Source: Thermococcus barophilus MP
GTDB lineage: Archaea > Methanobacteriota_B > Thermococci > Thermococcales > Thermococcaceae
Direction: 5' to 3'
Assembly (NCBI RefSeq): GCF_000151105.2
Contig: NC_014804.1
Location: 186,001 to 250,000 of the forward strand
Length of the DNA stretch: 64,000 bases
Shown: positions 31,835 through 55,687 of the stretch, piece after piece
How the letters are laid out: every line of letters begins with the position of its first letter
Position numbering within the stretch: the first letter of the stretch is position 1
Made by a program: the position numbers and the translations under genes
Notes under the pieces: model-generated
The model's database searches: none
Told to the model about the DNA's origin: nothing
What the model saw: only the letters and a program-made list of their open reading frames with translations

Positions 31835-31869
31835 ACTGATAATACCCATGTAGATTGTAATTTTCACCG

Positions 31870-31883
31870 AAACCTATTTATAC
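31870..31883 (+). promoter_or_regulatory. Promoter of the gfcR operon
   Basis: AAACCTATTTATAC is a BRE/TATA match 40-53 bases before the TTG start of gfcR. The leader would be about 15-20 bases and carry GGAGGTG. Its position argues against the longer reading of the gene. Confidence 0.65.
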
Positions 31884-31922
31884 ATTTTTTTGTCAATCAT
31901 TTTTTCAAAGGAGGTGGAGGCA

Positions 31923-32636
31923 TTGAGTCAGATAAAAGCAGTCAAGGAAAAGCTTAGGGTAATAAGAATCCTAAAACTGCTCAAAAAGAGGTATACATAT
32001 GAGGAACTTTCAAAGATAACTGGGCTGCCAATTACAGTGCTCAACAGATATGTGAGGGGAAAAGTCCTTCCAAGCACTGACAGGGCTAAGGAGCTTCTGG
32101 AGATGCTATCTCCATACATTAACATAGAAGAAGAAGTGAAAAGAAGAATACAGTTTGATGAACATGGTCTCTTTGATAACATGAAGATATTAAGCGACAC
32201 CAACTTAATGAGCCTGATAGCTGAAGAAGTTGCATCAAGATACATTAGTAAAGATATTTCAAAGGTTCTTACAGCGGCTACAGATGGCATACCATTGGCT
32301 GTTCACATAGCAAATGAGCTAAATGTTGATGTTGTATATGCAAAGAAGAAGAAAGAAGTTGGGGTTGAGAAATTCTATGAGGTCAATTACGTCCCCAGTG
32401 CCTCAGGGAGCGTTATGACACTATACCTGCCACAGTGGGCTTTGAAAAGAGGTGAAAAAGTTTTGATCGTTGATGATGTAATCAGGAGTGGAGAAACCCA
32501 AAAAGCCCTGCTGGAAATGTGTAAACAAGCTGGTGCTGTACCCGTTGGAATGTTTTTCCTAATAAGCGTTGGCAATGTTATCGATGTTCTCAAAAATGAA
32601 TATAAGATTCCAGTTGAAAGCTTGGTGAGACTATGA
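31923..32636 (+). CDS. gfcR: GfcR-type transcription regulator (HTH + PRTase)
   Basis: About 237 residues: an N-terminal helix-turn-helix (YTYEELSKITGLPITVLNRYVRGKVLPS) joined to a phosphoribosyltransferase fold with the PRPP-loop VLIVDDVIRSGET near residue 180 and TAATDGIPLAVHIANELN. This is the archaeal family named GfcR, which in haloarchaea controls sugar-degradation genes; it is not a biosynthetic enzyme of pyrimidines. The TTG at 31923 is chosen because GGAGGTG precedes it and the TATA box (AAACCTATTTATAC at 31870-31883) would make a start at 31890 lie at or before the transcript start. Coupled to the next gene by ATGA. Confidence 0.85.
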   Translation: MSQIKAVKEKLRVIRILKLLKKRYTYEELSKITGLPITVLNRYVRGKVLPSTDRAKELLEMLSPYINIEEEVKRRIQFDEHGLFDNMKILSDTNLMSLIAEEVASRYISKDISKVLTAATDGIPLAVHIANELNVDVVYAKKKKEVGVEKFYEVNYVPSASGSVMTLYLPQWALKRGEKVLIVDDVIRSGETQKALLEMCKQAGAVPVGMFFLISVGNVIDVLKNEYKIPVESLVRL

Positions 32637-33817
32637 TTAGCACAGGGATACAAAGGCTCGATGACATATTAAAGGGGGGCATTAGAGAAGAGCACAGTGT
32701 AATGTTCTCTGGGCTATTTGATGAAGACCACAGAATATTAATGCACCAATTTGTTTTTTCTCTTCTATCTCAAGACTACAAAGTCCTCTTAGTAGAGTTT
32801 AAGCAGACTCCACGCTCTTTGATAGAATGGGTTAAAGAATACGGCATAGATTATTCGTCGTTTATGGAAAGTGAAAAATTGAGGATACTTGATGGTTATA
32901 CAAACATATACTCTAAAATGACCGTTTCAGGAAAGGATATGCTCCCCAATCCCTTAGACTTACCAATAACAACAGCAATTATAAGAGATATCTTAATAAA
33001 GGAAAAGTATGATTTCCTCGTTATTGATGATTTATCAATCCTTTATGCCGTTTTATCAAGCAAGGAAGAATTCTTCAAAATTATCGTTAGATTCATAAAC
33101 TCAATTTCCCTTGAGCATGTATCCACAGTTGCATCATTTATGGAAGAATTAACTTCTCCTGACTACTATTCCCTTCTGACCTTGCCTTTTGGGTACGTTA
33201 TTTCAGTCAAGAACGGTAAAATACATGTTCTTAAGGCACCTCATCCTCTAAGTTCTGTGACATATTTCACTTATGTGAAAACAGAAAGGGGAATTCAGCC
33301 TTATGGAGAATATTATGAAACTGTGGAAAGGCTGAAAGAATCCCTATTTTTGGATGAAGAGGGTATGTTGTGGGCTGGAAATGAGAGGATCCAATTAGTG
33401 GAAGAGAACAGTGAAGCAACGCTTATTGAGGGCCTTTTTGAATATCTGGGGGAAGAGGAGGCTAAGAGATTTTTGTACTTTTGGGGGAGAAAATCATTCC
33501 AAGAAATAGGAAAAATATATGCAAAGGTTCACAAAAGTCTCAGGCACGTTTTAGAGAAAATATTTGATGAAACCAAGATTAGTGGGGGAGGAATGCTGGA
33601 AATTCTTCAATTTTCTAATGACATGATAGTAATTAAGGGAAAAAACCTGTTCCCAAGGATGCCAAACTTTGGATCTCAGGTTCACCTTCATTATGCCGGT
33701 GCACTTGCTCAAATAGTGGAAGAAATATCGGGCAGTGAATGGGAGGGTCATGAGGTTAAATGTGAAGCTAAGGGCGATTCATACTGCGAATTTGTAATAA
33801 AAAGAAAAGAGGAGTAA
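32633..33817 (+). CDS. Degenerate KaiC/RadA-like ATPase domain fused to a V4R domain
   Basis: 394 residues in two parts. Residues 1-230 follow the KaiC-like fold: STGIQRLDDILKGGIREEHSVMFSG at the start and a Walker B-like FLVIDDLSILYAVL near 130. The Walker A loop is lost: where GxxGxGKT is expected the sequence is GLFDEDHRILM. Residues about 310-394 form a V4R domain (VHLHYAGALAQIVEEISG, then KCEAKGDSYCEFVI with two conserved cysteines), a small-molecule or metal sensor also found in bacterial regulators. Overlap with gfcR (ATGA) implies the two act together. The function is not known. Confidence 0.8.
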   Translation: MISTGIQRLDDILKGGIREEHSVMFSGLFDEDHRILMHQFVFSLLSQDYKVLLVEFKQTPRSLIEWVKEYGIDYSSFMESEKLRILDGYTNIYSKMTVSGKDMLPNPLDLPITTAIIRDILIKEKYDFLVIDDLSILYAVLSSKEEFFKIIVRFINSISLEHVSTVASFMEELTSPDYYSLLTLPFGYVISVKNGKIHVLKAPHPLSSVTYFTYVKTERGIQPYGEYYETVERLKESLFLDEEGMLWAGNERIQLVEENSEATLIEGLFEYLGEEEAKRFLYFWGRKSFQEIGKIYAKVHKSLRHVLEKIFDETKISGGGMLEILQFSNDMIVIKGKNLFPRMPNFGSQVHLHYAGALAQIVEEISGSEWEGHEVKCEAKGDSYCEFVIKRKEE

Positions 33818-33838: not shown

Positions 33839-34168
33839 ATGGGGGGGTTTTTGGTTTATAATGCAGAGGGCAGAAGCTTGGTTATTGATGCCAACATTGG
33901 AGAAAGATTCTCTTTTTATTGCCCCAAGGAGGAATGTGAAACAGAAATAGTAATTGAAGGAGTCATAAGGCATGCAACTTTTGATGAGTTTGTTAGAGTT
34001 AGGGATCATATTATTGAGCAGAACAAAGAATTTAAAGTACTTAGGGATGTACTTCCCAAAGAACCTGTCATTTTTGAGGGCACAGTAAACGGAAAGAAGG
34101 TGAAATTGCCAGTAGAAAAACTGGACGAAGCAGCAAAGCGATTCATTAATAAATATCTAACTAAATAG
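33839..34168 (+). CDS. Small protein of unknown function, start disturbed by a G7 run
   Basis: The open frame from ATG 33839 gives 109 residues (MGGFLVYNAEGRSLVIDANIGERF...). It has two cysteines in FYCPKEECETEIVIEG and an even charge pattern. A better-placed ATG at 33820 lies behind GAGGAGTAAAA but is one base out of frame; the two frames join if the G7 run at 33841-33847 had six G. The intact protein may therefore begin MLGESGDGGFLVYN. Family not recognised. Its end overlaps the convergent Lrp gene by eight bases. Confidence 0.65.
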   Translation: MGGFLVYNAEGRSLVIDANIGERFSFYCPKEECETEIVIEGVIRHATFDEFVRVRDHIIEQNKEFKVLRDVLPKEPVIFEGTVNGKKVKLPVEKLDEAAKRFINKYLTK

Positions 34169-53807: not shown

Positions 53808-55508
53808 TCAAGCGGCCGCGTACTCCTCGGCTGGCTTCTTCCAGGCAGCGTACCAGTCGACGACGAGGAGCAAGTTGAGGAGTAAGCCGACGACGGTAAT
53901 GAGGGACACCCAGAATCCAGGCTTAATGACTATGAGGAACCATACGAGTGCTGCTGTCACTGTAATCCACAGGAAGAGTGCGGGGATAACCACTGCCCAC
54001 TTCCATGCTCCTTCTGGCCTCTGAACCTTTGCAACCCATAGAGAAGCTGTCATCATCGCAATACTTGCCAGCATTTGGTTCATACCACTGAATGCTGGCC
54101 AGATGATAAGCCAGCTTCCACCCCAAGCCATGTAAATACCGAAAATTGCAAGGATTATTGATGCAATCCACTTGTTCTTGAGAATCTCTGGACCGTGAAC
54201 CATATCCATTATCTCCTGCCATGCGAATCTTCCCAGTCTTGTAGCTGTATCAAGGGTTGTCAATGCGAATGCTGAGACCCAAAGGCTTGCAAACACTGCA
54301 CCGGTTTTGAAGGGAATTCCTAATGCATCTTGGAGTCCGTAGGCGTAGCTCTTTGCAAATATTCCGACCTTAATTCCATGCTTCACAACCTGGATTGCAT
54401 ATTGTGCACCCCAGTTTGTTGTATCGACTGGTATGTTCATTGTCTGGAATACTTTAAGACCGTAGACTGCAATTGAAGCAATGACGATTGTTGAGAGGAA
54501 GCCCTCTGTGAACATTCCACCGTATCCAACGAGCAGTCCGTGAAGTTCATTGTCCAGCTGCTTTGACGTTGTACCAGAACCAACGATGGAGTGGAATCCA
54601 CTCAATGCACCACATGCGATTACCAGTGGAACAGTTGGCCAGAATGGTGAGGGCTTTCCACCAACAACGTTGGCTGACCACGTTGTGAATGCTGGAGCAG
54701 AGAATGTTCCAACGCCCTTGAGTCCCACGATTATGAATGCAACACCACCGAGGAGCAATCCGAACCAGAGGATGTACGCGTTAAGATAGTCTCTTGGTTG
54801 CAGGAGAACCCATACTGGGAGTGATGAAGCTATGACGATGTAAATGCCTAAGACAATCATCCATGTGTGTTTGCTTGCAGCAATGGGGAACTTGAAACCT
54901 AACCACACTGCAATTATTAGCAGAATGATTCCAATGGCAGTTCCTGCATAGAAATTGATCTTCATCTTGTACAGCAGATATCCGAGGATTATTGCATCAA
55001 TCAAGAACAGCAGTGACGCAGTGGCTGCTTCTGGAGTTCCAACGAAAATACCGGAGATAACCGCTGCGAAAGCTGCGATAACAAGTACCAGGGCAAACCA
55101 TACATAGAGCTCAAATGCCATACTTGTTCTCCTGCTCATTAGCCTGCCCGCAATCCATTGGATTGACTTACCGTCGTACCTTACGGAGGACATTAATGCT
55201 AAGTAGTCATGAACTGCACCGATGAAAACGTTTCCGAACCAAACCCAAAGCAGTGATGGAAGCCATCCCCATGCCATTGCTACCGCTGGACCAACTATTG
55301 GACCAGCTCCTGCTATTGAAGCAAAGTGGTGTCCGTAGAGTACAATTGGGTGGGCTGGGACGTAGTCGACACCATCATACAAACGGTGTGCAGGTGTTGG
55401 TCTGTTTGGATCTGCTTTAACTACTTTGTTCTGGAGGGATCTTCCATAGCTCATGTACAATCCGGCATATATCAAAGCGGCAACCAAAATAATAAGGGTG
55501 GAGTTCAT
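53808..55508 (-). CDS. cstA: Carbon starvation protein A (CstA) transporter
   Basis: About 566 residues with fifteen or more membrane segments and the CstA signatures PTPAHRLYDGVDYVPAHPIVLYGHHFASIAGAGPIVGPA, VGAVHDYLALM-type loop and GFHSIVGSGTTSKQLDNE. Bacterial CstA/BtsT take up pyruvate or peptides, so a role in pyruvate or peptide uptake fits a peptide-fermenting archaeon. The ATG at 55508 is behind GGAGGTGCTAAA. The C-terminus is rich in alanine (PAEEYAAA). Confidence 0.93.
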   Translation of the reverse strand: MNSTLIILVAALIYAGLYMSYGRSLQNKVVKADPNRPTPAHRLYDGVDYVPAHPIVLYGHHFASIAGAGPIVGPAVAMAWGWLPSLLWVWFGNVFIGAVHDYLALMSSVRYDGKSIQWIAGRLMSRRTSMAFELYVWFALVLVIAAFAAVISGIFVGTPEAATASLLFLIDAIILGYLLYKMKINFYAGTAIGIILLIIAVWLGFKFPIAASKHTWMIVLGIYIVIASSLPVWVLLQPRDYLNAYILWFGLLLGGVAFIIVGLKGVGTFSAPAFTTWSANVVGGKPSPFWPTVPLVIACGALSGFHSIVGSGTTSKQLDNELHGLLVGYGGMFTEGFLSTIVIASIAVYGLKVFQTMNIPVDTTNWGAQYAIQVVKHGIKVGIFAKSYAYGLQDALGIPFKTGAVFASLWVSAFALTTLDTATRLGRFAWQEIMDMVHGPEILKNKWIASIILAIFGIYMAWGGSWLIIWPAFSGMNQMLASIAMMTASLWVAKVQRPEGAWKWAVVIPALFLWITVTAALVWFLIVIKPGFWVSLITVVGLLLNLLLVVDWYAAWKKPAEEYAAA

Positions 55509-55687
55509 TTTAGCACCTCCGGACCAAGGTTTTATCATTTTCTATTTTTGGGCATTGGATATATAAGAGTTTTTGAGATGTTCTTGAATAAATCGAATAA
55601 AATTTGGAAGATGTTTATCTAATAAATGTCAAAAAATTTAGAGAAGTGTACCAGAAATTGAATGAAAATTGACAATTGTATAAAACT

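Follow-up and report, generated by a model that had tools for sequence, protein, structure and literature searches.

A predicted purine repressor of Thermococcales and a separate putative sensor, built on an inactivated KaiC-like domain, that shares its operon in one lineage

Here, we explore a window of 64,000 nucleotides from the heat-loving archaeon Thermococcus barophilus MP, that is, positions 186001-250000 of its 2,010,078-base chromosome; the genome also includes a second contig, about 54 kb long. The analysis is centred on two overlapping genes of the forward strand, termed P1 and P2 below, and positions are those of the window. P1 encodes a putative regulator that combines a helix-turn-helix (HTH) with a phosphoribosyltransferase (PRT) domain, and the features of this gene and its promoter are as follows.

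31867-31882, plus strand: BRE/TATA element of the P1-P2 operon, CCGAAACCTATTTATA, nearly identical in 19 Thermococcales P1 promoters
31876-31899, plus strand: operator-like palindrome ATTTATACATTTTTTTGTCAATCA over the TATA box, a predicted autoregulatory site
31910-31917, plus strand: Shine-Dalgarno-like ggaggtgg ahead of P1, by direct sequence reading
31923-32636, plus strand: P1, HTH and phosphoribosyltransferase regulator of family PRK08558, with TTG start at 31923 and TGA end at 32636
32460-32498, plus strand: PRPP-binding-type motif VLIVDDVIRSGET in P1, by direct reading, in a PRT domain closest to PurR

Both Pribosyltran (1.1e-10) and HTH_3 (6.8e-6) domains of Pfam were identified in P1, which supports the view of an earlier sequence-only reading that it is a regulator of the metabolite-sensing type. 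The name GfcR given there is a family misassignment and can be ruled out, since P1 stays far below the cut-offs of two curated models, with 22.7 bits for GfcR_Halo (NF045507, cut-off 300) and 45 bits for PRK02277 (cut-off 115). Haloferax GfcR (PRK02277/NF045507) and P1 have the HTH plus PRT architecture in common, but the targets of GfcR belong to sugar catabolism, whereas the predicted target of P1 is purine synthesis. P1 is a member of PRK08558 (NF006328), which it matches over its full length (residues 1-237 of 237) at 361 bits (cut-off 184); this family is named adenine phosphoribosyltransferase, with no regulatory role or purine operators attached. The closest solved structure to its PRT domain is the Bacillus subtilis pur operon repressor (1p4a, E = 9e-17). 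P1 shows the PurR-like architecture, that is, a DNA-binding domain and a PRT domain of the same type with a PRPP motif, and B. subtilis PurR controls a purine regulon. However, P1 is not a member of the PurR equivalog TIGR01743 (87 bits versus a cut-off of 258.7), and the operator linked to P1 is a palindrome that is mostly paired at 42-43 bp.

The sequence ACCGAAACcTATTTATACATTTTTTTGTCAAT is common to the P1 promoters of 19 genomes. Conservation of this promoter stems partly from the TATA/BRE itself, while the TATA box does not account for the downstream part, TTGTCAAT. The strict form of the pattern occurs once in the genome of T. barophilus MP, and its loose form gives few extra matches in other genomes, among them the purP, purT, purQ and purL promoters. 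Starting from the P1 promoter, a palindrome that marks purine promoters, TTTTAACATN4ATGTTAAAA, was thus found. When TTWAACATN4ATGTTWAA was searched with no more than two mismatches, 15 sites were obtained in the own genome, compared with 3 for a control pattern; the enrichment rests on such pattern counts and on individual genome regions. The targets in the own genome are guaA, purP, purF, purT, purE/purD, purSQL, purA, an NCS2-type permease and the rrn operon, with gene names assigned by reading the neighbouring protein sequences; the other seven sites lie elsewhere, several of them within genes or on the second contig. In a more distant genome with PRK08558 (G112), 12 sites against 6 for the control gave no clear enrichment, and extension of the operator to this genome was rejected.

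The palindrome was derived from matches to the P1-promoter pattern, and the independent evidence for it consists of the purine identity of the targets and of a regular pairing of sites. For 40 sites, the second-best match to a scoring matrix was sought within 120 bases, and a second copy was found exactly 42 or 43 bp away at 34 of them, where about 0.7 would be expected. The two copies have a TATA-like element between them in the own genome at the purT, purD and purQ promoters, and in genome G074 at those of purP and guaA.

The scoring matrix was trained on purine-gene sites only, with the P1 promoters excluded. Applied to the latter, it gives 12.9-19.6 bits at one common position in 16 of 19 promoters, while the three Pyrococcus promoters reach only 7.2 bits. 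In the 64-kb window it ranks the P1 promoter first (16.8 bits, on the TATA box of P1 itself), and in genomes G018 and G025 the palindrome search retrieves the P1 promoter itself. An operator common to the purine-synthesis promoters and to P1's own promoter was thus found computationally. Because both the purine-site matrix and the palindrome search hit the P1 promoter, we propose that P1 is probably an autoregulated repressor of the purine regulon. It should be noted that motif evidence is no proof of the palindromes being read by P1, as a different factor could do so. Another transcription factor might read the purine operators, with P1 being only a target or an adenine phosphoribosyltransferase, as the NCBIfam name NF006328 has it, and the P1 promoter indeed carries one weaker site with no 42/43-bp partner. 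This alternative is quite improbable, considering that P1 possesses HTH_3 and a PRT domain closest to the PurR repressor, that it is the regulator gene seen with an operator-like site in five genera, and that it is universal in Thermococcales genomes of good quality.

P2 starts within the end of P1, and its features are listed below.

32633-32636, plus strand: ATGA stop/start overlap of P1 and P2
32633-33817, plus strand: P2, 394 amino acids from an ATG start at 32633, very probably an inactivated KaiC-like domain followed by a XylR_N-like/V4R sensor
32711-32734, plus strand: site of the lost P-loop, residues 27-34 (GLFDEDHR)
32801-32806, plus strand: [KR]Q at the place of the KaiC catalytic EE, residues 57-58, from a KaiC alignment and column counts
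33014-33031, plus strand: Walker B-like strand FLVIDD, residues 128-133
33626-33802, plus strand: V4R domain, residues 332-390 (Pfam, 2e-14)
33683-33685, 33752-33754, 33761-33763 and 33785-33787, plus strand: predicted metal ligands H351, E374, C377 and C385, respectively, invariant in 40 of 40 homologues

Residues 2-162 of P2 match the KaiC ATPase family of Pfam (3.5e-15), and the RecA/KaiC fold of this N-terminal part was confirmed with an AlphaFold2 model (pLDDT 89.5), for which Foldseek returned FlaH and PH0284 at E values of about 1e-13. In the alignment columns of 40 homologues, GxxxxGK[ST] never occurs; G27 and D32 are invariant at this place, followed by N/H/Y33 and V/I/R/L34 instead of G-K-T/S. 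Such a general absence rules out a sequencing error or a local loss. The catalytic EE of KaiC is changed to [KR]Q in nearly all of the 40 homologues, while the Walker B-like hhhhDD is retained, with D132 and D133 invariant throughout. That is, P2 lacks the Walker A motif and the catalytic Glu pair of an active KaiC-family ATPase. P2 might still be a nucleotide-binding KaiC-type ATPase that employs a non-canonical site, considering the clear RecA/KaiC fold and the invariance of the Walker B Asp and of G27, but this is very improbable, with the Walker A Lys, the Thr/Ser and the catalytic Glu pair absent from 40 of 40 homologues. The sequence-only reading had described a lost P-loop, a retained Walker B-like strand and a terminal V4R domain with two conserved cysteines (C377 and C385), and each of these observations holds; an intact P-loop in close homologues, which it named as evidence to the contrary, was looked for and found in none of the 40. 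The motif losses together with the V4R domain also support its view of P2 as a sensor whose ATPase scaffold is inactive, an anatomy that we consider very likely.

A work by Makarova in 2017 reportedly deals with KaiC-like hubs. Inactivated KaiC-like domains (iKaiC) in archaeal signalling proteins are a class mentioned in PMC5847659. P2 resembles this class in having the KaiC fold, lost ATPase motifs and an attached signalling domain, and differs in that its partner domain is a XylR_N/V4R sensor. Each half of the locus is of a known kind: P1 belongs with the HTH-PRT regulators, and P2 with the signalling proteins that carry an inactivated KaiC domain (PMC5847659). The fusion of a dead KaiC domain with V4R in Thermococcaceae was not found in the literature searched. 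Among 115 genomes of the phylum, full-length P2 was found only in Thermococcaceae, and only matches to the KaiC part were seen elsewhere.

The V4R domain of P2 (PF02830) scores 53.8 bits against a gathering threshold of 31, is matched in 21 of 21 homologues at E <= 0.1, and is preceded by a weak XylR_N match. By sequence, the V4R module is only weakly similar to MopR (E = 3e-5). Modelled alone (pLDDT 87.3), the C-terminal module has its best structural matches in MopR, DmpR and PoxR, with E values of 2e-9 and weaker and a high rmsd over the whole alignment. Relative to C377, the other candidate ligands are located at -26 (H351), -3 (E374) and +8 (C385), which equals the spacing of C155/E178/C181/C189 in MopR, residues of its zinc site, with the numbering counted on the aligned chain. 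In P2, E, C and C of the C-E-C-C zinc set of MopR/DmpR are present at equal spacing, and the first candidate ligand is a His. The zinc ligands of DmpR are described in PMC7264223. The aromatic sensor domains of MopR, PoxR and DmpR, which have the Glu-Cys-Cys at the spacing of P2, are accompanied by a live AAA+ ATPase and an HTH, whereas P2 has a dead KaiC-like domain. In the archaeal V4R protein MJ1460 (2osd), the His-Glu-Cys-Cys pattern and its spacing are identical to those of P2, but the deposited chain of 163 residues has no KaiC-like domain. P2 may hold zinc and sense a ligand or the redox state, and would then illustrate how archaea can build a metal/ligand sensor of bacterial type on a reused, inactive KaiC domain.

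The linkage of both genes was surveyed by synteny in 94 Thermococcales genomes, 74 of which are of good quality. P1 is present in 91 of the 94 and in all 74 good-quality genomes, many of them without P2, while P2 is present in 41, in one of them as fragments only. The two genes are adjacent in nine genomes, that is, six of the window's genus (g1, including the fragmentary G088), two of genus g2 and one of genus g6. The ATGA overlap, already pointed out in the sequence-only reading, was confirmed and is identical at the linked loci of these nine genomes from three genera, and the P2 proteins of linked loci form one clade with a support of 100/100. In 32 of the 41 P2-bearing genomes P2 is not linked to P1, namely in 9/9 genomes of g3, presumably Pyrococcus, and in 23/61 genomes of g4. 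Most g4 genomes have P1 and no P2, and none of the 13 genomes of g5 has P2, though 12 of them have P1. In addition, G087 has a decayed P2 start (MISMEIQKLDNILNGE...LVHQFALSSL) directly after P1, and G002 has kept P1 with no remnant of P2.

One contig of G088 contains P2 downstream of P1, split over broken frames (L071:2325-3301), and a second, C-terminal piece of P2 is located at the end of another contig (L030, C283:12505-13071); decay, duplication or an assembly fault could each explain this. An open reading frame of 109 amino acids at 33839-34168, which is conserved and belongs to no Pfam family, is located downstream of P1, or of the P1-P2 pair, in numerous genomes of g1, g2, g4, g5 and g6.

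The sequence-only reading had proposed that both genes constitute a two-part signalling module, and had named frequent occurrence of P2 away from P1 as evidence against it. The overlap is indeed kept in one clade of nine genomes, but the survey, with 32 of 41 unlinked, rules out a general partnership of P2 with P1. An obligate module, in which P2 would bind P1 and pass a second signal to it, might be suggested by the overlap and single origin of the linked clade, as well as by the fact that P1 and P2 are both sensors by fold; any contact between the two proteins would be conjectural. Against it are the 32 unlinked genomes, the distribution of the two genes in g4 and g5, and the loss of P2 in G087 and G002, both of which keep P1. 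The operator is also missing from the promoters of unlinked P2, since 25 of them, scanned with the purine-site matrix, reach a maximum of 3.6 bits, which rules out P2 as a member of the purine regulon outside the linked clade. We consider an obligate module unlikely. The P1-P2 pairing looks like a local arrangement of one lineage, because most related species keep both genes far apart, and most likely P2 is a sensor in its own right that came to lie in the P1 operon in this lineage.

The neighbours of unlinked P2 are varied and include ribosomal/translation genes (L7Ae/IF2), a PIN-ATPase, or peroxiredoxin, flavodiiron protein and ferritin genes; a single functional context was sought among these neighbour genes and none was found. 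It is conceivable, though somewhat unlikely, that P2 is a redox-stress sensor resembling MsvR, the redox V4R regulator of methanogens, and that its linkage to P1 is incidental. The V4R domain of P2 matches that of MsvR, and its cysteines are spaced as in MaMsvR (C206/C232/C240; PMC3729527). Moreover, peroxiredoxin, flavodiiron protein or ferritin genes are neighbours of P2 in three Thermococcus genomes (G027, G068 and G073; loci L037, L039 and L076). However, these three genomes belong to one clade and may represent a single event, and the other contexts of P2 are not redox loci. In contrast to MsvR, which contains an HTH and three conserved cysteines, P2 has no HTH and a His in place of the first cysteine, and with 25.2 bits against a cut-off of 220 for the MsvR model NF053755, P2 is not a member of that family.

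Taken as a whole, the preferred reading is that P1 is an autoregulated purine repressor of Thermococcales and that P2 is a separate sensor, to which we assign a probability of about 0.68 on the basis of sequence comparison. According to this reading, the HTH of P1 would bind the 24-bp palindrome, and its PurR-like PRT domain would sense PRPP or a purine as effector. At purine promoters, P1 would occupy two operators 42-43 bp apart, that is, about four helical turns, on one face of the DNA; the paired operators, which usually flank the TATA box, would hold P1 dimers around it and block TBP/TFB. At its own promoter, P1 would occupy one operator over the TATA box. The XylR_N/V4R module of P2 would hold a metal at H351/E374/C377/C385 and respond to a small molecule or to the redox state, while the KaiC-like domain, presumably no longer an ATPase, would act as a scaffold for oligomerisation or docking. 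In one clade of three genera, the ATGA overlap would place P2 in the P1 operon and hence under shared expression, and outside this clade P2 would work with no link to P1.

To our knowledge, the transcriptional control of archaeal purine synthesis is poorly assigned, and a NAR paper of 2000 reportedly treats archaeal regulatory sites. A purine regulon with paired operators was not found in the literature searched, although the purine signal may have been predicted earlier. For a universal Thermococcales gene that is annotated as an enzyme, the present results provide a predicted regulon together with an operator and a testable promoter geometry, and the putative purine switch P1 is a bigger lead than the P1-P2 pairing.

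In eight genomes of g1, g4 and g5, the purine palindrome is located between the prs and Pab19/16S rRNA genes, and in most of them a weaker copy is present at a distance of 42-43 bp. The example of the own genome is near 812060-812126 of C1 (L145:2061-2127), and further ones are at L163-L168 and L170. The purine regulator might thus control the rRNA operon as well, in which case ribosome synthesis would follow the purine supply. A broader picture, in which P1 is a master repressor acting through TATA-flanking operators on purine genes and also on the rRNA operon, with the P2 of one clade adding a redox or small-molecule signal, is speculative and, in this full form, decidedly improbable.

Several operator-like sites were observed near other genes. 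In the window, the second-best match, at 55570-55635, scores 14.9 bits and is accompanied by a copy of 7.5 bits 42 bases off; it lies upstream of a gene for a CstA-like transporter (53808-55538, minus strand) and beside a biotin-dependent decarboxylase-like gene. In G024, according to sequence reading, one site (L157:2064) precedes a gene for a CBS-domain-like protein of 188 amino acids, and another (L158:2007) precedes a glutamine-synthetase-like gene.
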